Positions 17,190 to 38,222 of a DNA stretch of 64,000 nucleotides are shown here, piece after piece. Every line of letters starts with the position of its first letter. Position 1 is the stretch's first letter. Origin of the DNA: Candidatus Hydrogenedentota bacterium (GTDB lineage Bacteria > Hydrogenedentota > Hydrogenedentia > Hydrogenedentales > JAGMZX01); the NCBI GenBank assembly GCA_029556545.1, contig JAKQEQ010000073.1, positions 1-64,000 of the forward strand, written 5' to 3'. The notes beneath the pieces are model-generated. The model did no database searches. It worked only from the letters and a program-made list of their open reading frames with translations, and had not been told where the DNA came from. A program made the position numbers and the translations under genes.

Positions 17190-17219
17190 TTGACTGCCGC
17201 GAACCTCGTTATTACAATG
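17190..17219 (+). promoter_or_regulatory. Sigma70 promoter of the DnaA-like/HD operon
   Basis: TTGACT (17190-17195), 18-bp spacer, TACAAT (17214-17219). One mismatch in each hexamer, 38 bases before the start codon. One of the best promoter matches in the window. Confidence 0.7.
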
Positions 17220-17257
17220 GGTTATCGGGATAGGTGCGGGACTGCGGAAGGCGCCGC

Positions 17258-18688
17258 ATGAACACATTCAGTTTTGAACAATTCGACGTGGCGGACGCGA
17301 ACCGCGCGGCTTATGAGACATGCCGCGACGTGGCGGCGCTTCGATACGCGGGGCCGCGCCCGGTGTTGTTGCTCGGTCCGGAGCAAAGCGGAAAGACCCA
17401 TCTGCTTTGGGCCATCGTGAAGCGGGTCCGCGCCGGCGCGGCCCAGGCAAGTCTCGCGCTCGTCATGGCCCATGAGTTCCCCGAGAAGGTGCGCGCGCTC
17501 GTGAAGGATGCTTCTCCGATCCGCGGCAAGCCCGCGGTTTTTCTCGTGGATGAGCTCGACCAATTTCAGGAAAATGCGGCCGACCTCGAGGCCGTGACGC
17601 GGCTCTTTCTCGAATACGGCCACCAGGTGGTGATCGCGAGCAGCGTCCATCCAGACCGCCTGGCGTCGCTCAGTCGGGAGTTCCGAAGCCTGCTGCACGC
17701 CGGGCGCATCATCGAGATTGAGCCGCGCTGGAGTGTGTCCGCGGCGGCGGCTTCCGAACCCGGCGAAGCCGATGGCGCGGCGCTTGCAGAGGCTCGGGCG
17801 ACTTTGGAGCGTGCGCAACAAGAGAACGACGTGCAACGGCGCGAGATTGCGCAGTTGCGCGCCATTGCCGAGGCATTGGGAAAGGAGCGTGACACCCTCG
17901 AAGCGAAACTGGCCGAAAAAGCGAGGTCGGGGGGGGAACTGGTGGAATTGCGGGAACGTGCCTCGGCTGCCGAGGCTGAGCGTGACCGGATCGCGGCGGC
18001 GTTGAGCGAATTGCGCGAGGAGCTTGCCGCGCGGGAGGCGGCCGCGGAGGAACATGCGAAGGCGCTGGCCGTTTGCGAGGCGGAACGCGCCGCTGCCGTC
18101 GAACAGCGGGACCTGATCGAGAAGCAACTCAGCGAGGCGTGGCAGCGCGCGGCCAAGGTGGACCGGCTACGCGAACTGTTGGCGGAGGCGCGCGAGGACG
18201 CGGCCGCCGCGTTCGCGCAGCAGGCGCGGCTGCAGGGCGAGGTGGGGGCACTGAAGTTCGCGGTCGAGGAATTGGAATCGGTGCGGGCGGAGCGGGACGC
18301 GGCGCGCGAATTCGCTGCGCAGTTGGAGGCGCGCGGGCGGGAGGCGCTTGATCGCTTCAACGCATTGCGGGGGATGTGGTTGGCGTCCTTTTCCGCGCTG
18401 CGCGAGCGCTTGGCCCGGACCGATGACAGCGGGGGAGAGGCGTGGTCGGGACTGCCGGGAGACGACGATTTTGCGTCGGAGATGATGGAAGAGGCGCGGG
18501 CCGCGCAGGGACGACTTCAGGTCGCGTTAGATGCCGCCCAGGCCCGCTTGCGCGCCGTCGAGGCGGAAATCGAGGCGCTGCGCCAGGAGCGCATCGAGCA
18601 GAACGCGGTAATTGAAGCCCTTCGCGACGCCGCCGCGCGTGCGGAAGACGGTTCGAGCCACGGGCAGGACGATCGCGACGATGGCTGA
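17258..18688 (+). CDS. DnaA/Hda-like AAA+ ATPase fused to a long coiled coil
   Basis: 476 residues. The first 160 match DnaA domain III: FSFEQFDVADANRAAY (compare YTFDNFVVGxSNRxAY), Walker A GPEQSGKTHLLWAI near residue 42, Walker B VFLVDELDQF near 97, and a sensor-like VVIASSVHPDRL followed by SREFRSLLHAGRIIEIEP. The helical lid and DNA-binding domain IV of DnaA are absent. Instead, residues about 175-460 are an Ala/Glu/Arg-rich heptad coiled coil (ELAAREAAAEEHAKALAVCE). Start ATG at 17258 after GGAAGG. This combination is neither DnaA (450 aa, HTH end) nor Hda (about 230 aa, no tail). The HD gene downstream overlaps its last codons. A role as a tethered or oligomeric regulator of replication or chromosome organisation is inference only. 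Confidence 0.75.
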   Translation: MNTFSFEQFDVADANRAAYETCRDVAALRYAGPRPVLLLGPEQSGKTHLLWAIVKRVRAGAAQASLALVMAHEFPEKVRALVKDASPIRGKPAVFLVDELDQFQENAADLEAVTRLFLEYGHQVVIASSVHPDRLASLSREFRSLLHAGRIIEIEPRWSVSAAAASEPGEADGAALAEARATLERAQQENDVQRREIAQLRAIAEALGKERDTLEAKLAEKARSGGELVELRERASAAEAERDRIAAALSELREELAAREAAAEEHAKALAVCEAERAAAVEQRDLIEKQLSEAWQRAAKVDRLRELLAEAREDAAAAFAQQARLQGEVGALKFAVEELESVRAERDAAREFAAQLEARGREALDRFNALRGMWLASFSALRERLARTDDSGGEAWSGLPGDDDFASEMMEEARAAQGRLQVALDAAQARLRAVEAEIEALRQERIEQNAVIEALRDAAARAEDGSSHGQDDRDDG

Positions 18689-19289
18689 CCAATCGCCCGG
18701 GCATCCGGAGTTTCCGGAGCAATTGATCGCGCTCTTTGAGGCTGTACACCCGCTGGACCGCGTGGCGCGCGCCGGGTACGTCCTTCGCGGCGTCGCCGAA
18801 CCCGAGTCGGTGGCCGCGCATAGTCACTTTGTCGCGTTGATGGCCCTTCTCTTCCTCGAAGAATATCCCGACTGCTGGGACCGCGAGAAAGTGCTGGCCA
18901 TGGCGCTCATCCATGACCTTGCCGAAGCGCGTCTCATGGACATCCCCATGCCCGCCGCCGACGCGCATCTGCGCGCGGCTAAGGATGCGGCGGAGCAGAC
19001 CATCATTGAGGACCTATTGCGCGGCTCTTTTGAGCACCTGACCGCGTTGCACCAGGAGTTTATCGAGGGACGCACGCCGGAAGCGCGGCTGCTGCGCGGC
19101 CTCGACAAGGCGCAGATGATGATCAAGGTCTTCTGCTACCAGCGCGAGCATCGGGGAAATCTCGAGGAGTTCTGGGAGAACCCGCGCAACTTCGAGGATT
19201 ACGGCGTCGAGCCCGTGTCCGCCTTATTCGATACGATCTGCGCCCGGGCCGGGCGCCCCCGCCCCGGAGCGCGTCCCATGAGTTGTTGA
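18681..19289 (+). CDS. HD-domain phosphohydrolase (YfbR/HDDC2-like 5'-deoxynucleotidase)
   Basis: 202 residues starting at an ATG that overlaps the end of the AAA+ gene by eight bases (ATGGCTGA), so translation is likely coupled. The metal ligands of the HD family are in order: SVAAHSHFVALMA (His), MALIHDLAEA (HD), LDKAQMMIKVF (Asp). Length and arrangement fit HDDC2/YfbR enzymes that dephosphorylate deoxynucleoside 5'-monophosphates. Its pairing with a DnaA-like ATPase would join dNTP-pool control to a replication-type protein; that link is inferred from gene order. Confidence 0.82.
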   Translation: MADQSPGHPEFPEQLIALFEAVHPLDRVARAGYVLRGVAEPESVAAHSHFVALMALLFLEEYPDCWDREKVLAMALIHDLAEARLMDIPMPAADAHLRAAKDAAEQTIIEDLLRGSFEHLTALHQEFIEGRTPEARLLRGLDKAQMMIKVFCYQREHRGNLEEFWENPRNFEDYGVEPVSALFDTICARAGRPRPGARPMSC

Positions 19290-19360
19290 AACTTGAAGAT
19301 GGTCTCCTCATCGCCCACAGTGGGCGTTGAAAGCTGTTCAAGACAGAAGAGGAAACCACC

Positions 19361-19540
19361 ATGGACGAGTATGACGTTGCGATGTTGTTGATGCAGGCGG
19401 AAGCAGAGGAACTTGGTGTCGTGTTCCGGGACTCGATGCGGGGCGTGGCGCGACGGACGGTATTGCGGGTGCTCGAGGCGGAGACGCAGGTCCTGTGCGG
19501 TGCGCTGTACCGGCCCGACGGAGGCTCGCAGTACCGGGAA
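19361..19540 (+). pseudogene. Possible IS256/Mutator-type transposase N-terminal remnant
   Basis: An ATG after GAGGAAACC opens a 60-codon segment (MDEYDVAMLLMQAEAEELG ... LEAETQVLCGALY) that resembles the N-terminal helices and the MEAEV-xx-LCGA motif of Mutator-type transposases. It then breaks off at a G-rich tract (GGGAAAGAGGGGGAAAAGG). If correct it is a decayed insertion element at the left edge of the mosaic island. The match is short, so a different small protein cannot be excluded. Confidence 0.4.
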
Positions 19541-19573
19541 AGAGGGGGAAAAGGGGGGACGGGGGAAAAGGGG

Positions 19574-19690
19574 AGCAGCCACCTATTTTCGCGTCGAAAA
19601 AGAGAAGCCGTACTTCCCGATGCTGTTCAGCTTCCTCGATTCCTACCGCCAGCAGATCGCGCCCCTGCCCGCGCCGGGCGCCCGGCAGGA
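19574..19690 (+). repeat. E1-3'-end-derived direct repeat, left copy around the GxGYxYP gene
   Basis: AGCCACCTATTTTCGCGTCGAAA, followed by about 64 bases nearly identical to the coding end of the E1 dehydrogenase (33149-33212). It translates as YFPMLFSFLDSYRQQIAPLP against YFPMPFSFLDAYHQQIAPLP in E1. The right copy is at 21596-21712. No working gene reads through it. Confidence 0.8.
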
Positions 19691-19732
19691 GGTCATGGGG
19701 AGTGTTTGGGCAACAAGGGAATAACCAAGACT

Positions 19733-21544
19733 ATGGTGTTCGTCAAGAAACCTTTGCTCGTTTTCTCGCTTGCGCTTGCAACAGCGCTTTTTTCGGGGCC
19801 GCTATTTGCAGCGGGTACGGCCCTGCCCGTATTGGTCGTTACTTCAGCGCAGCCGCCGGAGACCGCGGGTGAATCTACTCATACTGTCCCCCTTCCCGGT
19901 GAAGTTCGGCCATTAAGGGTGGTGGACATTACACGGGAAACACACCCGGCTGTCAAGATCGCGGCCCAAGCGTGCGCCGGGTTGTGGAATCGTGAATCCG
20001 GCGGCTCCGTCTTCACGCGCATGAGTGAAAAAGACTCCCACTGGATGGAGCAACTTTCACTGCAGCCCGATGCAATCATGAATGCCGATGATTTCCTGGC
20101 TGCCTGTATGACCGAATTCCCCCGGTGCGTGCGGTATTCCTACGCGGAGCAGCAGGAATTACTTCCAAATATCCTTACAATTAGCGCGGTTCTCAGGGCC
20201 ATACCGGTCGCCGTGGAAATGGATGTGCAATGTGAAAACATCGTATTTGACGCCACAGTAATGTTGAAGGAGCACGATACCCCTTATCTCGCAACAAAGT
20301 ACGTCTATGAAAACTTTGTGAACGAAACTACCGGACTCGCCATGCTCAACCCGGGATATCCAACCAAGGATGGATCGGTTTGGAACCCCGAGCTTAGCGA
20401 GGACATGAATCCGGCCATGATCGATTTTGTGTTCTCTGAAAAGCTGTTTACCATGTTCCTGGTGAACGGCTGCATAATGTGCACAGAAGAACACGCTCTT
20501 GTGAACGACATTGTCAGCGTGAATCCCTGGCCCAAGCCCATTGGCGTTTATGGGTATGCGAATTATTGGATGGTATTCGGCGGATACCTTTTCGAGGCGC
20601 AGACTTTGTGCGCCAAGTCACGAAACATGGGGGCTATCCCCACTACAGTCAATAACCTTTCCTTCTTCTCGACACGACGAGAGCCGATTACCGGTCCCGA
20701 CGGGCCAAAGCCAAACGAATTGGAGGGTATCGACTATGATCCCACCAAGACTTATGTGGCCTTTATCGTGGGTGACGGAGACAATATCGAGTTCATGATG
20801 GGCATGCGCGTGGAGTGGTTTCGTCAGCGGGCTGAGGCCTGTCGTGAGGGAGAAAATTTCTGCCCGCCGCTTACCTGGACCATCTCTCCGCACCTTGCCC
20901 GCATTGCGCCTGATGTCTTTGAATGGTACTACGAAATGAGTCGCGAAACCGGCAATGATTACTTCATGCTTCCGCCCAGCGGCCATCTGTATGCGTATCC
21001 ATCGTCCTTGGATGCAAGGACCATGCAGGACAAATTCGTCGAGGCCACGGAAGCAGACGCCCGCCTGCTCGGAACCAACAGTACCGTTCACTGGGAGGCC
21101 TTTTGGAGATGGCGATACGCTCAAAATTCATTCCTGCCGAAGTACGCAGGAACGGACGAGGGCATCAATGGTGTGTTTCCGGTGAACGTGCCCTATATGT
21201 TCCCAATGGGCACGTGGGAACATAATCAGTTCTTCAAGGTGATCGATGGCCAGGAGCACGGGAAGATCGTATTGTTCCGCCCCAGGCAGTGGAGGGGGGT
21301 CCATAATGGTGGTGCGTTCCTCAGCAAGAAATTCTACCTGAGCCCTGAAAACATGGAGAGAGAGCTGGGCGCGTACCCGAGGGGAACCGTTACGGCCATT
21401 TACATGACCAGCGACGGCGGACTCAACCTCAACAACTCTGTCATGGAGCTGGTCAAAATTCTCCCCGAACACATTCGGCTTGTCAGCGGTGACACCGCTG
21501 TTCAACTTGCTCTTGAAGCGTCAGAAACAATTGCGGCGAGATAA
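19733..21544 (+). CDS. Secreted GxGYxYP-family putative glycoside hydrolase
   Basis: 603 residues with a signal peptide (VKKPLLVFSLALATALFSG ... AAG). The C-terminal half matches PF14323: FIVGDGDNIEFMMG, WTISPHLARIAPDVFEWYY, NDYFMLPPSGHLYAYPSS (the SGxxYxYP signature) and HWEAFWRWRY. Start ATG at 19733; the in-frame upstream stretch from 19361 belongs to unrelated remnants. The gene is visibly less GC-rich than its neighbours and sits between two 115-bp direct repeats, which suggests it was acquired. The substrate is unknown; the family is linked to polysaccharide use. Confidence 0.85.
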   Translation: MVFVKKPLLVFSLALATALFSGPLFAAGTALPVLVVTSAQPPETAGESTHTVPLPGEVRPLRVVDITRETHPAVKIAAQACAGLWNRESGGSVFTRMSEKDSHWMEQLSLQPDAIMNADDFLAACMTEFPRCVRYSYAEQQELLPNILTISAVLRAIPVAVEMDVQCENIVFDATVMLKEHDTPYLATKYVYENFVNETTGLAMLNPGYPTKDGSVWNPELSEDMNPAMIDFVFSEKLFTMFLVNGCIMCTEEHALVNDIVSVNPWPKPIGVYGYANYWMVFGGYLFEAQTLCAKSRNMGAIPTTVNNLSFFSTRREPITGPDGPKPNELEGIDYDPTKTYVAFIVGDGDNIEFMMGMRVEWFRQRAEACREGENFCPPLTWTISPHLARIAPDVFEWYYEMSRETGNDYFMLPPSGHLYAYPSSLDARTMQDKFVEATEADARLLGTNSTVHWEAFWRWRYAQNSFLPKYAGTDEGINGVFPVNVPYMFPMGTWEHNQFFKVIDGQEHGKIVLFRPRQWRGVHNGGAFLSKKFYLSPENMERELGAYPRGTVTAIYMTSDGGLNLNNSVMELVKILPEHIRLVSGDTAVQLALEASETIAAR

Positions 21545-21595
21545 GCCTAACCGTCCCGTGAAGGCCGTCTTGCGCGGTGAGGAAGAAGAAAAACG

Positions 21596-21712
21596 GGACA
21601 GCCACCCATTTTCGCGTCGAAATCGAGGAGCAGTACTTCCCGATGCTGTTCAGCGTCCTCGACGCCTATCACCAGCAGATTGCGCCCCTGCCCGCGCCGC
21701 GCGCCCCCGCCC
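21596..21712 (+). repeat. E1-3'-end-derived direct repeat, right copy around the GxGYxYP gene
   Basis: Same composition as the copy at 19574-19690: GGGACAGCCACCCATTTTCG, then CAGTACTTCCCGATGCTGTT and onward, translating as EEQYFPMLFSVLDAYHQQIAPLPAP. The codons are those of the E1 tail. The rest of 21545-21900 shows no gene. Confidence 0.8.
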
Positions 21713-21900
21713 CCGCTGACGCCCGAGATGACTCAACGCCTGAGACCCACGTGTCGAGTCGTATCCGCCAGTCCTTTGCGCGGATAGTATTTTCGTCGCG
21801 CCGACCGCACCCGCACAACAAGGGCGCGCGGGCGGGGAACCGTGTTGGCTCCGCCGCCCGTGCGCCTGTTCAGGAGTCTATCGCACGCGTATGCGTCGCG

Positions 21901-24036
21901 TCAGGGGCCCATGTCGTGAACGCTATCCACGGCGAAGTCTCGACCGGCGCCGTGGCATACCGCGCAGGTCTCTACGCCCGCCGCGGCGTCCGCGTTCAGC
22001 ATTGCGTGGAAGTTGGCGAGCACGCTGTCGTGACACGACGTGCATGCCGCCCGTTCCGGCAGCACTTCGGTAACGGCCGTCCCGTTGTCCACCACGGTCG
22101 AGAGCGCGTCGGCGGGCAGCGGCACGTCGTAGGTGCCGGGCAGGTGGCACATCTCGCACTCGCGCCGGTCACCGGGGAACCGCACGTGCGTGAAGTCATG
22201 CGCGACGTTGCCATAACCGTAAACCGTGTACGGTCCGCTCAGTTCCTCGCCCGTGTGAATCTTATGGATCATCTGCTTGAAGTGGATGGTCGCCGTATCC
22301 GCGAGAGCGCCCTCAGGCCGCCGAGCAATGTCCGTGTTGTTTGGATTGTGGCAGAAGAGGCAGAGGTCCACGCCGAAACGCTGTGAGCCATGCGCCCGGA
22401 TTTCACCGTGACAGGCGTTGCACTTTGCCTCGTCCACAATGGCGCGGCGCGGCTTCGGCGCGCTGCCGTCGAGCGTGAAGAACGTCAGGCCGTTCGATGA
22501 CGTGCCCTGGGTGACGTTGGCGTCCCCGAACGCAAAGGTCCGGCGGCCTTCCATCGCCACGGCGAAGGTGTCGCCAGTGCCGACCGGCAGTTTGGCGCGA
22601 TAGGTGTATACGTAGGTGCCGGTGGGGCTCGCGTTCGTGTTCAACGTGCCGTTCGGGCCGCCGCCGCCCTGGATCGCCTCGCGGATATACGTTTCATACT
22701 CGGGGGCAGGGTAGGCCACCAGCGTCGAAACCGAACTGAGGTCGGCCAGCGCGGTCACCGGGCTGCCGTCGCCGTTCACGGCGGTGAAGGTGATTTGCAC
22801 GGTGCCGTCCGCGGGAATCGCGCTCACGTCGACGATATCCAGCGCCAGCCCGGGCGCTTCCTCGCTTTGCGTCGGGATGCGGTGGACGGTAGTAACGGCC
22901 GCGACGCCCGGCTCGTCCGGCGTGTGGCAGACCGCGCATTGGGTATCGGTCGGCTGATCGAAGTCGAACGGGTGGTTTTGGAAGCCTTCCGGCGTCGCGG
23001 TGGGATTACCGAACCACGTGCGGTCGTGGCACGAGCCGCAGCCGGCGCGCGTGGGCAGCATCTTGTACACGTCCGCGTGCGGCGCGTTCTGGTGGCACAC
23101 GGTGCAATTGCGGATATCCTGCGGGAAGACAACGGTCGAGTAGTCGTGGACGCTGCCGCCGAAGCCGATGATCTGGTACGGGTGGCCGTCCTCGACGCTG
23201 GGCAGTCCTTCGCCCATGTGAATCTTGTGGATGAGCACCGGCATATCGACCGAGTTGCCGGTGTCAGGATCGACGCTCTGCTCGTTGTGGCAGAGGATGC
23301 ACAATTGAATCTCGCGGCGGACGTCGCCGTGCAGCCCGAGCCGCGTGTGGCAGGCGTTACACGTTTCGGTATTGACGATTTCTCGCGTCTTGGCCACCGT
23401 GCCGCCGTCGGGCCGGAACGTGTATATCGGGTTGGCTATGTAACTTTTTCCGTCCACGATATACGTCCGGCGGAACTGGCCGCCCAACTGGTGGGTAGCG
23501 TCCCGGGCGTAGCCGGCGGGGAGCGCGGTCGCGAACTTGTACACGAAGGAGCCGTCCGGCTGCTGCGTGGTCCCGTTCAGGCGCCCGCCGTCGTAGGTCG
23601 CCTGACCGTTGCCGGACAGGATGTAGTTGACATAGCGGGGACTCGCCACGCTCTTGCCCGCGCCCGAGCCTTCGAGGTAGGCCAAGGTGAATCGCAGATC
23701 GCTGAACTCGGCCTTGTTGACGGTATTGCCCCGGTTGTCCCGCGCGCGGAACCGCACTTCGGGGCGCAAGTCGGCGGGCACGGTCACGCTATCTATAGTG
23801 ATGTCGAGGCCGGCATCCCAGGCAACGCCCGTGCCTGGAGGTCCCTGGGGCCCTTCGGGTCCTTCGGGCCCTTCCGGTCCCTGGGGCCCTTCCGGACCTT
23901 CGGGGCCTTGAGGCCCGGTCGGCCCCTGAGGTCCGGGACATCCGATGAGCAACGCCACGCTCATGCAGCACAGCATGAACAGCACGGTCCTCGTCGAAAC
24001 CGCCGCAAGCATCCTTGGTTTACGCCGCTGTGTCAT
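21901..24036 (-). CDS. OmcA/MtrC-type decaheme c-type cytochrome lipoprotein with collagen-like stalk
   Basis: 711 residues. A lipobox (SVALLIGC) ends the signal peptide, followed directly by a 36-residue Gly-Pro-x collagen-like stretch ([17 protein letters not shown]). Ten CxxCH haem motifs follow in two groups of five: CNACH, CILCH, CTVCH, CGSCH, CAVCH and CNACH, CLFCH, CEMCH, CTSCH, CAVCH. Each pentahaem module is preceded by a beta-rich domain, as in outer-membrane decaheme cytochromes (MtrC/OmcA) that pass electrons to extracellular acceptors. The ATG at 24036 follows AAGGG. No mtrA/mtrB-like porin-cytochrome partner is nearby, so the route across the outer membrane is unknown. Confidence 0.92.
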
Positions 24037-30736: not shown

Positions 30737-33274
30737 ATGACGAAGAAGCTGGTGGTCGATCCGCGGGTATGCCGGAAGCCGGGTGTTGTTGAACTGGGCG
30801 AAATCCCCGTCAATCAATATCGCAAGACGATCAAGCAGGAACTGAAATCGGGTTCGGGCGTTTCCGTCGAGCGCTGCGCGCGCATCTACCGCGACATGGC
30901 GGTGATCCGCGAGTTCGAGACCATGCTCGATACGATCAAGAAGCTGGGCGAATACGAGGGGATCGCGTACAACCACGCGGGGCCGGCGCACCTGTCCATC
31001 GGGCAGGAAGGCGCGGCGGTCGGCGAGTGCGTGCATCTCACGGTCGAGGACCACATCTTCGGCAGCCACCGCAGTCACGGGGAGATTCTCGCGAAAGGGC
31101 TGCGCGCCGTCGAGGACCTGTGCGGCAACCGGCTCGTCGAGATCATGGAGAACTATTTCGACGGCGCGATCCTGCGTGTGGTGCAGCGGCACGAGCCGAG
31201 TCACGCGGGGCTGCGCCTGCGGGCGAAGGGGCAACGCAAGCCGTTCCTCGCCACGAGCGACGAGGAGGAACTCGGCGTCGATTTCCTGATCTACGGGCTG
31301 CTGGCGGAAATCTTCGGGCGCGAGACGGGCTTCAACAAGGGCATGGGCGGCTCGATGCACGCCTTCTTCGTGCCTTTCGGGGTGTACCCAGCCAACGCCA
31401 TCGTGGGCGGCAGCGCGGACATCGCGACAGGCTCCGCGCTGTGCCGCAAGATTCGGCGCAAGCCCGGCGTGACGGTGGCGAACATTGGCGATGCGTCGGT
31501 GGCGTGCGGGCCGGTATGGGAGGCCATGAACCTCGCCGCGATGGCGCAGTACGAGACGTTGTGGGAGGCCGAGTACCGGGGCGGCCTGCCGATCATTTAC
31601 AACTTCATGGACAACTTCTACGGCATGGGCGGCCAGCCCATCGGCGAGACCTCCGGGTTTGATCGTCTGGCGCGTGTCGGCGCGGCGCTGAACGCGCGCA
31701 ACATGCTCGCGGAGGTCGTCGACGGCAACAACCCGCTCGCGCTCGCGGACGCCTACCGCCGCAAACTCGACGCGATCAAGAAGGGTCAGGGACCGGTCCT
31801 GCTCGACGTGCTCTGCTACCGTCAGTCGGGCCACTCGCCAAGTGATCAATCCGCGTATCGCGTGCGCGAGGAGATCGACCTGTGGCGCGCGGTGGACCCG
31901 CTGGTCGAGTTCGGCGGCAAAGTGGTAGACGCGGGGGTGCTTACCGAGGCGGACCTCGAAACGCTCCGCGCCTACGCGAGAGACAAGGTCGTGAAAGCGT
32001 GCCGTCTGGCCGTGAACACGGAGGTTTCGCCGCGCATGACCCTAACGCCCCATACGGGCGTATCGCAGCTCATGTTCTCGAACCGGGAGGAGGCGGATTT
32101 GCCGGGCCTCGAACGACCGGACGACGTGCTGATCCCGATGGCGGAAAACCCGCGCGTGCAGGCGATTGCGAAGAAGGCGCGCGGCGGCCTGGACGCGGAC
32201 GGGACCGTACTCAAGGCGTCGAAGGCGGTGACCTTCGGCGAGGCGATTTTTGAGGCGGTCCTGCACCACTTCCACCACGATTCGCGGCTTGCGGCGTGGG
32301 GCGAGGAAAACCGCGACTGGGGCGGCGCGTTCGCCGTGTACCAGGGGCTTACCGAGGCGCTGCCGTATCATAGACTTTTCAATTCGTCCATCTCGGAGGG
32401 CGCAATCGTCGGGACCGGCGTCGGTTTCGCGATGGAAGGGGGACGGCCGCTGGTCGAACTCATGTACTGCGATTTCATGGGCCGCGCGGGCGACGAAGTC
32501 TTCAACCAACTGCCCAAGTGGCAGGCCATGTCGGGCGGGCTGCTGACGATGCCCGTCGTGCTGCGCGTGTCCGTCGGCGCGAAATACGGCGCGCAGCATT
32601 CGCAGGACTGGACGGCCCTCTGCGCGCATGTGCCGGGGCTGAAGGTGGTCTTCCCGGCGACGCCGTACAGCGCGAAGGGACTCATGGCCTCCGCCTTGAG
32701 CGGCAGCGACCCGGTCGTCTTCTTCGAGAGCCAGCGCTTGTACAACCAGGTCGAGATTTTCCGGCCCGAGGGCGTGCCCGCCGAATACTACCGTCTGCCC
32801 ATCGGCGAACCGGCGATCATCAAGGAGGGTTCGGACCTGACGGTGCTTACCTTCGGCGCGACGCTCTACCGCGCCGTCGAGGCCGCAAAGCGGTTCGAGA
32901 GCGAATTCGGCATTTCCGTCGAGGTCATCGACGGCCAGACGCTCGTGCCCTTCAATTACGCGCCCGTCGTGGAATCGTTGAAGAGGACCGGCAAGATACT
33001 CCTCGCCAGCGACGCCTGCGAACGGGGGAGTTATCTGCACACCATCGCGGGGCAACTTACGCAGATTGCCTTCGACGAACTCGACGCGCCCCCGTGCGTC
33101 ATCGGCGCTGCCAATTGGATCGTGCCGCCCGCCGAAATGGAAGAACAGTACTTCCCGATGCCGTTCAGCTTCCTCGACGCCTACCACCAGCAGATCGCGC
33201 CCTTGCCCGGCTATGCGCCGCACATCCCGCGCACTCCGGAGGAATTCATCGCGCTGAATAAGCAGGGCGTGTGA
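30737..33274 (+). CDS. Fused alpha-beta E1 component of a thiamine-diphosphate 2-oxoacid dehydrogenase
   Basis: 845 residues joining the alpha (about 45-400) and beta (about 490-830) subunits that are separate in pyruvate, acetoin or branched-chain 2-oxoacid dehydrogenases. Alpha part: GSHRSHGEILAKG, FNKGMGGSMH, and the diphosphate motif as NIGDASVACG (GDA rather than GDG) with a longer spacing to IIYNFMDNFYGMGGQP. Beta part: TFGEAIFEAVLHHF, NSSISEGAIVGTGVGFAMEG, and the conserved C-terminal PPAEMEEQYFPMPFSFLDAY. ATG after GAGAGAAGG. No E2 or E3 gene is nearby, so the substrate is unknown. Its last 130 bp occur as fragments at 19.6, 21.6 and 34.5 kb. Confidence 0.88.
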   Translation: MTKKLVVDPRVCRKPGVVELGEIPVNQYRKTIKQELKSGSGVSVERCARIYRDMAVIREFETMLDTIKKLGEYEGIAYNHAGPAHLSIGQEGAAVGECVHLTVEDHIFGSHRSHGEILAKGLRAVEDLCGNRLVEIMENYFDGAILRVVQRHEPSHAGLRLRAKGQRKPFLATSDEEELGVDFLIYGLLAEIFGRETGFNKGMGGSMHAFFVPFGVYPANAIVGGSADIATGSALCRKIRRKPGVTVANIGDASVACGPVWEAMNLAAMAQYETLWEAEYRGGLPIIYNFMDNFYGMGGQPIGETSGFDRLARVGAALNARNMLAEVVDGNNPLALADAYRRKLDAIKKGQGPVLLDVLCYRQSGHSPSDQSAYRVREEIDLWRAVDPLVEFGGKVVDAGVLTEADLETLRAYARDKVVKACRLAVNTEVSPRMTLTPHTGVSQLMFSNREEADLPGLERPDDVLIPMAENPRVQAIAKKARGGLDADGTVLKASKAVTFGEAIFEAVLHHFHHDSRLAAWGEENRDWGGAFAVYQGLTEALPYHRLFNSSISEGAIVGTGVGFAMEGGRPLVELMYCDFMGRAGDEVFNQLPKWQAMSGGLLTMPVVLRVSVGAKYGAQHSQDWTALCAHVPGLKVVFPATPYSAKGLMASALSGSDPVVFFESQRLYNQVEIFRPEGVPAEYYRLPIGEPAIIKEGSDLTVLTFGATLYRAVEAAKRFESEFGISVEVIDGQTLVPFNYAPVVESLKRTGKILLASDACERGSYLHTIAGQLTQIAFDELDAPPCVIGAANWIVPPAEMEEQYFPMPFSFLDAYHQQIAPLPGYAPHIPRTPEEFIALNKQGV
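33210..33274 (+). repeat. E1 gene 3' end, source copy of the terminal direct repeat
   Basis: The last 65 bp of the E1 gene, coding LPGYAPHIPRTPEEFIALNKQGV and stop. A second copy at 34484-34548 codes LPPHTPPIPQTPEEFIALNRQGV and stop; from CCGGAGGAATTC to the stop codon they differ at only two positions. Confidence 0.8.
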
Positions 33275-33295
33275 ATCGGCAAGCGTGCCGTAGGC

Positions 33296-33323
33296 TTCCA
33301 ATTCGCCATCCGCGGTATATAAT
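33296..33323 (+). promoter_or_regulatory. Promoter of the MntA-HepT module
   Basis: TTCCAA (33296-33301), 16-bp spacer, TATAAT (33318-33323) inside TATATAATA, 30 bases before the first gene. Confidence 0.5.
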
Positions 33324-33353
33324 AGGAACGGACCAATAGAAGGCGGAAGCCAG

Positions 33354-33698
33354 ATGACAAAGCGATTGGAAGAAGCAAGTACGATCTCGGATAGCGACCG
33401 TGAACTCCTTCTTGAAGTGAAATCCACTATCCGGCGGTTTTTGCCTGAAGCCAAGGTGCTCCTATATGGCAGCACCGCGCGGGGCGAACGCGGTCGCGAA
33501 TCCGACTACGACATCCTTGTGCTCACGCCGAAACCATTGCCGCCCGACGTCGAGCAGGTCGTGGACGATGCGCTTTATGACTTGGAATTGGAGCGCGGCG
33601 TGGTGCTTGCAGTCACCTTTTGGCCCGAATCGGAATGGGTTCGTCACACGCGAATGCCCTTTAGAAAAGAAGTGGCACAGGACGGGATCGTGCTGTGA
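33354..33698 (+). CDS. MNT-type nucleotidyltransferase antitoxin (MntA-like)
   Basis: 114 residues with the minimal nucleotidyltransferase motif LLYGSTARGERGRESDYDILV (GSx10DxD), then a third acidic position in a short C-terminal region. In type VII toxin-antitoxin systems MntA proteins AMPylate the HEPN partner and silence it. It overlaps the HEPN gene by four bases (GTGA). Visibly less GC-rich than the E1 gene. Confidence 0.88.
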   Translation: MTKRLEEASTISDSDRELLLEVKSTIRRFLPEAKVLLYGSTARGERGRESDYDILVLTPKPLPPDVEQVVDDALYDLELERGVVLAVTFWPESEWVRHTRMPFRKEVAQDGIVL

Positions 33699-34096
33699 CC
33701 GCCGAGGAACGGGAATACGTACTCCACCGCATACGACAATCCCAGGAATCGATGCGGGTTGCGGAAGTCTGCCTGACTGAGGGGCTTACAATGACTGCGG
33801 TGAACCGTATCTACTACGGCTGCTTCTACCTCGTATCGGCTTTGTTGCTTTGCGAGGGACTTGCCTCATCAAAGCATTCCGGAGTCCGTTCACTTTTTGA
33901 TCAGCACTGGGTCAAGACTGGCCGCCTTCCATCGGAATTCTCGCGCTTCTACCGAAAAATGCTGAAGCGCCGTCACAGCGGCGACTATATTGATTTGGCG
34001 TCATTCGACCTGGACGAGGTTCGAACATGGTACGAGGAGGCTCGTAACTTCGAGTCTTGTCTGAACGAGCAGATAGGCCGTTTTCTTGGCCGCTGA
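33695..34096 (+). CDS. HEPN-domain toxin (HepT-like)
   Basis: 133 residues, GTG start overlapping the MntA stop. All-helical HEPN domain: RIRQSQESMRVAEVCLTEG, VNRIYYGCFYLVSALLL, and the FYRKMLKRRHSGDY stretch, where an R-x6-H arrangement and the conserved DY lie, as in HEPN ribonucleases. Toxin of the MNT-HEPN pair, presumably an RNase inactivated by AMPylation near the DY. Confidence 0.85.
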   Translation: MTAEEREYVLHRIRQSQESMRVAEVCLTEGLTMTAVNRIYYGCFYLVSALLLCEGLASSKHSGVRSLFDQHWVKTGRLPSEFSRFYRKMLKRRHSGDYIDLASFDLDEVRTWYEEARNFESCLNEQIGRFLGR

Positions 34097-34181
34097 GCCC
34101 CCTCGTTACGAACCGGACACAGCACAGTGGCTTATCCGAGACTGGGCACGACTTGTTCATACGCGGCGAAAGGGTGCGGCT

Positions 34182-34442
34182 ATGAATATCGTGAACCTGG
34201 CCGAAGGAGATCGGAGCGTCTCCGAACTCATCGAGATTGCGAAGTCGGGCCCCGTTCTTGTTCATGCAGTTGACGGAACGGACTTTGTGCTGGAGGAAGC
34301 CGACGCCTTCGAGCGCGAGGCAGCGATGCTGGGGGCCAGCGACGGGTTCAAGTCCTTTCTTCAGCAGCGGTCTCGCGAAGGAGAGGAGATTTCCGCTTCG
34401 GAGGTGGCGAAACGGCTTGGCATAGACGCTGAGGCCAAGTAG
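34182..34442 (+). CDS. Small antitoxin-like protein without a recognisable partner
   Basis: 86 residues, ATG at 34182 after AAGGGTG. MNIVNLAEGDRSVSELIEIAKSG resembles the start of Phd-type antitoxins (prevent-host-death fold), and the C-terminal EEISASEVAKRLGID is a short helical tail. No RelE/Doc/PIN toxin follows; the next sequence is the copied E1 end. It may be a remnant antitoxin or an accessory of the MNT-HEPN pair 85 bases upstream. Confidence 0.55.
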   Translation: MNIVNLAEGDRSVSELIEIAKSGPVLVHAVDGTDFVLEEADAFEREAAMLGASDGFKSFLQQRSREGEEISASEVAKRLGIDAEAK

Positions 34443-34483
34443 GATGCGCCGGACAACGCATTCCGCCAAGGCGCCGCTCTTCC

Positions 34484-34548
34484 GCCACACGCCGCCCATT
34501 CCCCAAACGCCGGAGGAATTCATCGCGCTGAATAGGCAGGGCGTGTAA
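34484..34548 (+). repeat. Second copy of the E1 gene 3' end, right border of the MntA-HepT insertion
   Basis: Translates in frame as ALPPHTPPIPQTPEEFIALN and RQGV with a stop, matching the E1 C-terminus. The core from 34510 (CCGGAGGAATTCATCGCGCT) matches 33236 onward almost exactly. It carries no start or ribosome site, so it is a repeat, not a gene. Confidence 0.8.
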
Positions 34549-38136: not shown

Positions 38137-38222
38137 TTCTGGATTCCCGCTTGCGCGGGAATGACGGTGGGGAAGAGCGCGGCCTGCTACGTCGTCATTC
38201 CCGCGCAAGCGGGAATCCAGAA
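38137..38222. repeat. REP-type element with a perfect 30-bp inverted repeat
   Basis: TTCTGGATTCCCGCTTGCGC at 38137 continues to 38166, and its exact reverse complement occupies 38193-38222; each arm also contains an internal CCCGC...GCGGG hairpin. This is the form of intergenic REP/BIME elements mobilised by RAYT transposases in many bacteria. No RAYT gene is in the window. The rest of 37990-38319 holds no gene. Confidence 0.85.

Follow-up and report, generated by a model that had tools for sequence, protein, structure and literature searches.

The GxGYxYP gene of this uncultured Hydrogenedentota bacterium, a secreted-enzyme gene, lies at the 3′ end of an HD-domain gene, between two direct repeats (R1 and R2) that are each assembled from three sources. 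Neither the gene nor the repeats are present at the corresponding site of the only congener compared (G001). Our preferred account, to which we assign an about even chance, is that the locus is a lineage-specific patchwork insertion at the HD gene 3′ end, and that the repeat pair arose via single-crossover integration. By itself the locus is a modest example of a gene stitched in behind another. A broader arrangement, in which displaced copies of a gene's 3′ end alternate with small unrelated genes, is the more interesting of the two, and might represent a previously undescribed means of gene collection. Coordinates refer to the window, the whole 64,000-nucleotide stretch of DNA analysed, unless a contig is named. 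The locus comprises the following features.

18612–19289, forward strand: HD-domain gene (Pfam HD_3, E=5e-27), its 3′ end being the insertion site
19242–19265, forward strand: H0, HD gene end; it recurs at the right edge of R2 (22/24 nt) and, in part, at that of R1
19271–19538, forward strand: 5′ part of an insertion sequence (IS) with the start of its transposase gene, right side truncated; 85% identical to G024:C30:3290-3540, and over 58 nt 88% identical to G058:C437
19566–19683, forward strand: R1, left direct-repeat copy (repeat searches)
19571–19589, forward strand: RAYT/REP-type end motif in R1, GGGA(G)CAGCCACCTATTTT (motif-family search)
19592–19671, forward strand: E1-derived 80 nt in R1, 85% identical to E1 33130–33209
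19667–19683, forward strand: H1, 17-nt HD-end-like piece at the right edge of R1 (16/17 nt)
19733–21544, forward strand: GxGYxYP putative glycoside hydrolase gene, 603 aa (Pfam PF14323, GxGYxYP_C, E=4e-20)
21590–21706, forward strand: R2, right direct-repeat copy (repeat searches)
21595–21612, forward strand: RAYT/REP-type end motif in R2, GGGACAGCCACCCATTTT (exact match)
21615–21694, forward strand: E1-derived 80 nt in R2, 89% identical to E1 33130–33209
21690–21713, forward strand: H2, the HD gene end again (22/24 nt), at the right edge of R2; a TGA matching the congener's HD stop follows

R1 and R2 share the same orientation and are 88% identical over 118 bp (E about 1e-36), with the GxGYxYP gene between them. 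The 117-bp direct repeats that an earlier note on this DNA had placed at 19574 and 21596 are therefore real. So is the block AGCCACCyATTTTCGCGTCGAAA described upstream of the E1 piece, which is present exactly in both copies and occurs twice in the window, where zero occurrences are expected. It has no exact match in the scanned genome collection, from which near records were possibly left out. The genome-wide search for further copies of the fused block, as proposed in that note, returns the R1/R2 pair alone: the whole 6.1 Mb assembly holds no third copy of R, and R is absent from every other genome searched. A mobile-element family bounded by R is ruled out, the genome having just these two copies; known as a single pair, R bounds no family of elements.

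Each repeat is a composite of a RAYT/REP end motif, a piece of the E1 gene and a piece of the HD gene end. R1 and R2 have their composite junctions in common, so the composite predates the doubling. The first component, GGGACAGCCACCYATTTT, is an end motif of the RAYT/REP elements of this bacterial order; 20 of 70 genomes contain matches, reversed controls none. It frequently forms inverted pairs in other genomes, and in G033 a motif pair flanks a 231-aa protein with a Pfam Y1_Tnp domain (E=1.6e-12). The second component had been described as about 64 bases nearly identical to codons near the end of the fused E1 gene 13 kb away. Its origin in E1 is confirmed; its length is 80 nt, and the distance fits R1 (13.5 kb) but not R2 (11.5 kb), the source gene lying downstream of both. 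The term gene end does not hold, since the piece (33130–33209) breaks off 65 nt ahead of the E1 stop codon and the E1 part of R is thus not the gene's very end. Comparison of the right flanks of R1 and R2 with the last part of E1 likewise rejects R as a full E1 end: 423 and 101 of 2000 shuffles, respectively, are as good. Codon differences are 3 synonymous versus 6 non-synonymous between R1 and R2, 3 versus 7 between R1 and E1, and 5 versus 4 between R2 and E1. Judged by these counts, the three diverge without a clear coding signal, and R is decaying like non-coding DNA.

The third component ties the repeats to the left flank. The annotated final codons of the HD gene run into the IS fragment; at the equivalent position the G001 orthologue terminates in ..ARAGRRRPR*. 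The HD gene end lies 2.4 kb upstream of its copy at R2. There the H2 region continues into the stop region of the G001 HD gene (80% over 40 nt; 0 of 1000 shuffles as good), and the 24-mer of R2 matches nothing in the window besides the HD gene end: at up to 3 mismatches there are two hits in all, with 0.01 expected. These HD-end repeats are short and GC-rich, which counts against the patchwork account. The IS fragment, between the HD gene and R1, represents the first about 268 nt of the element, its right limit being judged by eye.

The enclosed gene has homologues in seven relatives at 73–82% DNA identity. With 53.8% GC against 63.1% for the window, it is AT-richer, as had been noted. An open reading frame at 19361–21544 is an artefactual extension that joins the gene in frame to the IS fragment; the likely start is 19733. 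Beyond R2, positions 21901–24036 encode an MtrC/MtrF-like multihaem outer-membrane cytochrome with a collagen-like stretch.

Comparison with G001 supplies the evidence for gain. The counterparts of 17190–19265 and 21893–23916 lie together on one contig of the congener with 651 bp between them, and this gap contains no GxGYxYP gene, IS fragment or R. Adjoining flanks without these three elements indicate that the segment was gained or swapped in by this lineage. A short reverse-strand gene, CYTH-like as judged by eye, occupies the gap; the site is therefore not cleanly empty, and the pre-insertion state is not seen directly. The comparison for empty sites that had been suggested is accordingly positive for the absence of enzyme, IS and repeats, and negative for a clean empty site. 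The GxGYxYP gene of G001 is 82% identical (next best relative 77%) and resides on a different contig, with an alcohol dehydrogenase gene as its neighbour. Here the counterpart of that site is occupied by an auxin-efflux-type gene (read by eye) and lacks a GxGYxYP gene. The differing positions are suggestive only, and would fit movement or re-acquisition of the gene; gene order between the two is poor overall, which makes one gene's changed position weak evidence for mobility. No flanking repeat is detected around the GxGYxYP genes of six other relatives, some of these loci extending less than 1 kb on one side; the G001 gene, in which a contig ends, was left out of this comparison. Repeats as the usual boundary of GxGYxYP genes are rejected, none being detected around the relatives' genes.

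The anatomy, the three sources of R and the segment's absence at the congener's site are established directly; from this anatomy we infer an order of events, a crossover and a circular intermediate. (i) Pieces of foreign and ectopic origin, namely the IS left end, the RAYT/REP end motif and the 80-nt E1 piece, would first have joined into the stop-codon region of the HD gene, leaving the 24-nt HD-end repeat on the outside. (ii) The GxGYxYP gene would then have entered with another unit of REP motif, E1 piece and HD end. (iii) The doubling would most likely reflect one homologous crossover between chromosomal R and the R of an incoming or excised circle carrying the GxGYxYP gene, yielding R–GxGYxYP–R. 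Repeats of 118 bp would also permit RecA-type loss or re-duplication. A protein profile scan recognizes no recombinase gene in the insert.

In the earlier note the locus was likened to an inserted cargo with a copied gene end on either side, a reading that is supported in part. Absence of the segment from the G001 site agrees with this description. The CYTH-like gene at that site, the single R pair, the missing true E1 end in R and the repeat-free GxGYxYP genes of relatives disagree with it. The general idea is real elsewhere, at the E1 gene of this window (34471–34548) and, much more plainly, at a GSU2086-type gene in 10 genomes. The relevant features are listed below.

30737–33274, forward strand: fused E1 gene, dehydrogenase E1 plus transketolase domains (Pfam E1_dh, Transket_pyr, Transketolase_C), source of the E1 piece of R (33130–33209)
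33354–34096, forward strand: MNT nucleotidyltransferase and HEPN pair of toxin–antitoxin type, directly 3′ of E1 (NTP_transf_2 E=4e-11, HEPN E=5e-13)
34471–34548, forward strand: displaced copy of the final 78 nt of E1 including the stop codon, 78% identical overall and 88% over 57 nt
C81:203545-208875 (L147:3545-8875): array behind the GSU2086-type gene of this genome (related loci L236–L246)

The MNT gene has a weak MntA antitoxin match, below cut-off. A third small open reading frame accompanies the pair between E1 and its displaced end (33216–34548). In G001 other genes follow E1, with no displaced copy of the E1 end behind it. Scanning 864 kb of this genome for local repeats yielded two clearer cases than R, the one at E1 and the GSU2086 case on contig C81. 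There a deoxyhypusine-synthase-like gene of the GSU2086 family (NCBIfam NF052581) has its end at 204657. Downstream of it stand a GmrSD_N/NsnA-like gene, the gene for an 88-aa MazE-like antitoxin whose homologue in G021 matches PF04014, and DUF4258 and MqsA-like genes. A 90% copy of the gene end comes next (207563–207646), then a methyltransferase and a third end copy. The congener has kept the second copy, the methyltransferase and the third copy (83%); a VapC toxin (TIGR00028, E=8e-23) precedes its second copy, so cargo has turned over.

The end of the GSU2086-type gene was searched for in 68 genomes and 20 loci were read. Displaced ends are found in 10 genomes of four families (G000, G001, G015, G021, G047, G053, G055, G056, G057 and G062). 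Each genome has one to six extra copies, with unrelated small genes between them that are often of toxin–antitoxin type: four copies lie behind the gene in G021 and three in G047. In G062, six ends separated by cargo, a DUF4258–MqsA cassette included, form an ectopic array (G062:C1120, L239:14702-18661) behind a miaA-like gene, about 12 kb from the parent gene and on the opposite strand. Most displaced copies comprise about the last 75 nt before the stop, a minority being shorter or frameshifted; the left limit varies from 75 to more than 150 nt, and the array units measure about 0.25–3 kb. In several cases (G047, G055, G015) cassette start codons overlap or abut the gene's stop, so that cassettes would be expressed as the operon's next gene. 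Displaced ends are 65–96% identical to the host gene end and the segments between them are mutually unrelated. Simple tandem duplication is unsupported as their origin, since the ends are recognizable while the intervening segments are unrelated. Varied cargo is a property of the GSU2086-type ends, whereas the displaced E1 end and R have one cargo each, in this genome only. About 1.1 kb downstream of a 765-aa gene in G021 (G021:C71:107748-110045), at about 111170, lie 216 nt copied from that gene's end, in frame and for the most part conserved.

Several observations point to movement of the cassettes. The MazE-like cassette is found in G000 and G021 (61%), the DUF4258–MqsA cassette in G000, G021 and G057, and a membrane-protein cassette in G021 and G047 (66%). 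Homologues of DUF4258–MqsA at about 55% identity or more lie at the GSU2086-type gene or its displaced ends in 7 of 8 genomes. The eighth (G018:C58, a short contig end) has the pair without a visible gene end; distant homologues occur elsewhere. Cassette identity also conflicts with host-gene identity, which is counted as evidence for movement: the MqsA part is 85% identical between G057 (family f10) and G021 (f9), whose host genes are 77% identical, and 61% identical between G057 and G051 (both f10), whose host genes are 84% identical. Toxin–antitoxin cassettes thus appear, on sequence comparison, to move between families. Displaced ends differ from the host gene by 81 synonymous and 48 other changes, where about a quarter synonymous is the neutral expectation (nominal p 2e-17, the events not being independent). 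Among those compared, 4 of 13 displaced ends have their nearest gene end in another genome. Seen in these data, displaced ends have behaved as functional gene ends before displacement, in the manner of gene-restoring integration (PMC4383910), and not as dead local copies. The variable left limits would speak against a single exact crossover site; homologous recombination that requires a minimum length would fit them. No recombinase is recognized among the scanned proteins from the window insert and the cassettes.

The phenomenon is gene-specific. By count, gene-end copies show no overall excess over internal or 5′ ones. At E≤1e-3, 828 genes of this genome give 11 downstream ends, 17 internal copies and 6 heads; at E≤1e-7, 1347 open reading frames of four genomes give 19, 17 and 11. 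Most counted copies are paralogues or low-complexity sequence. E1, the GSU2086-type gene and one G021 gene stand out as strong end-only cases; the effect is confined to particular genes and not genome-wide. One match, on contig C157, turned out to be a scattered intergenic repeat, GGAGACCTTCGGTCGGGCCGGTGGCGCGGTCAGGAGACCGGCCACAAC, with several copies (C134:195626-198742; C157 near 30311 and 32513), some beside RAYT/REP motifs. Other repeats in the window are 120-bp tandem repeats in six to nine copies, apparently coding (1–1023), and a perfect 30-bp inverted repeat with a 26-nt loop (38137–38222; TTCTGGATTCCCGCTTGCGCGGGAATGACG).

It is conceivable, as a tentative proposal, that Hydrogenedentota possess an undescribed cassette-collecting system, with the GxGYxYP locus as a decayed ectopic member of E1 type. 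Small units carrying cargo (toxin–antitoxin, defence or unknown genes) and a host gene 3′ end would integrate at that gene end, restore the gene and push the old end downstream, stacking into arrays and at times using ectopic sites. Applied to R1–GxGYxYP–R2 itself, this gives the closest competitor of the patchwork account: small circles with cargo and a gene 3′ end would recombine into that gene end, at times elsewhere, as arrays. We consider it doubtful for this locus. The same genome does contain the order E1, MNT/HEPN, E1 end, and the order GSU2086 gene, defence and toxin–antitoxin genes, end, methyltransferase, end. The six-end array of G062, about 12 kb from its parent, parallels R at 11.5–13.5 kb from E1, and the E1-frame of R1 closes 8 nt before the GxGYxYP start codon. 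Against these points, R is missing the final 65 nt of E1, while other displaced ends reach the stop codon or nearly so; R includes REP and HD pieces; it shows no clear coding signal, which displaced GSU2086 ends have; and it is found in no other genome searched. Ectopic direct repeats of a gene 3′ region around cargo are the trait the locus has in common with the arrays, but the piece is internal and fused to debris, so its membership is uncertain.

Insertion with a long target duplication is unlikely. A break in a single R would have been repaired with GxGYxYP DNA as filler, doubling 118 bp. The 24-nt HD-end repeat at the outer boundary suggests that repair-type duplications may have happened there, and duplication during repair of a break leaves a sequence identical to that of the crossover route. 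A length of 118 bp is long for end-joining repair, however, and the homologous route gives the same structure by a known mechanism. An assembly artefact or chance similarity is highly improbable even in a draft of 195 contigs with 4.27% contamination, given that the copies differ by 12% and so are not one repeat collapsed or misjoined, that E-values are about 1e-36 and that the flanks agree with the congener's gene order.

Among known systems, a composite transposon also has cargo between two direct copies, as in R1/R2. Its flanks carry transposase, whereas R is about 118 bp, lacks a transposase and occurs at this site only, one IS 5′ fragment lying outside R1. RAYT/REP elements (defined in PMC2817692) are related through the end motif that flanks the RAYT gene in G033; in R1/R2 the motifs have the same orientation and enclose GxGYxYP, with no RAYT gene between them. 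Gene-restoring islands of the tRNA/tmRNA type (Islander, PMC4383910) or the SGI1 type at the trmE 3′ end (PMC8409611) leave an intact gene, an insert and a displaced 3′ fragment, and tandem and secondary-site insertions have been described (PMC2297512). That displaced end is found at 34471–34548 and the GSU2086-type loci and not at R1/R2, where the fragment is internal to E1 and ectopic. Such islands are integrated by an integrase and usually span many kb; here units of about 0.25–3 kb have variable left ends, and no integrase is seen in the inserted DNA among the proteins scanned. Integrons and CALINs (integrase-less attC clusters) resemble the GSU2086 arrays (not R) in their small head-to-tail cassettes, several of them toxin–antitoxin, and repeats of about 75–150 nt. 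The integron repeat is attC, whereas that of the arrays is a protein-coding gene end without a consistent fold. Across about 30 gene-end copies no consistent attC-like hairpin is found on either strand, energies being mostly near those of shuffled sequence, and no integron integrase is recognized in the loci read. The searched literature, which most subscription journals lie beyond, contains no matching description of gene-end cassette arrays. The broader arrangement is thus one of integron-like arrays without a recognized integrase, which have an ordinary protein gene's 3′ end as their base and consist partly of toxin–antitoxin cassettes. If confirmed, it would offer a testable way for genes to be captured in a phylum that has hardly any cultured representatives.
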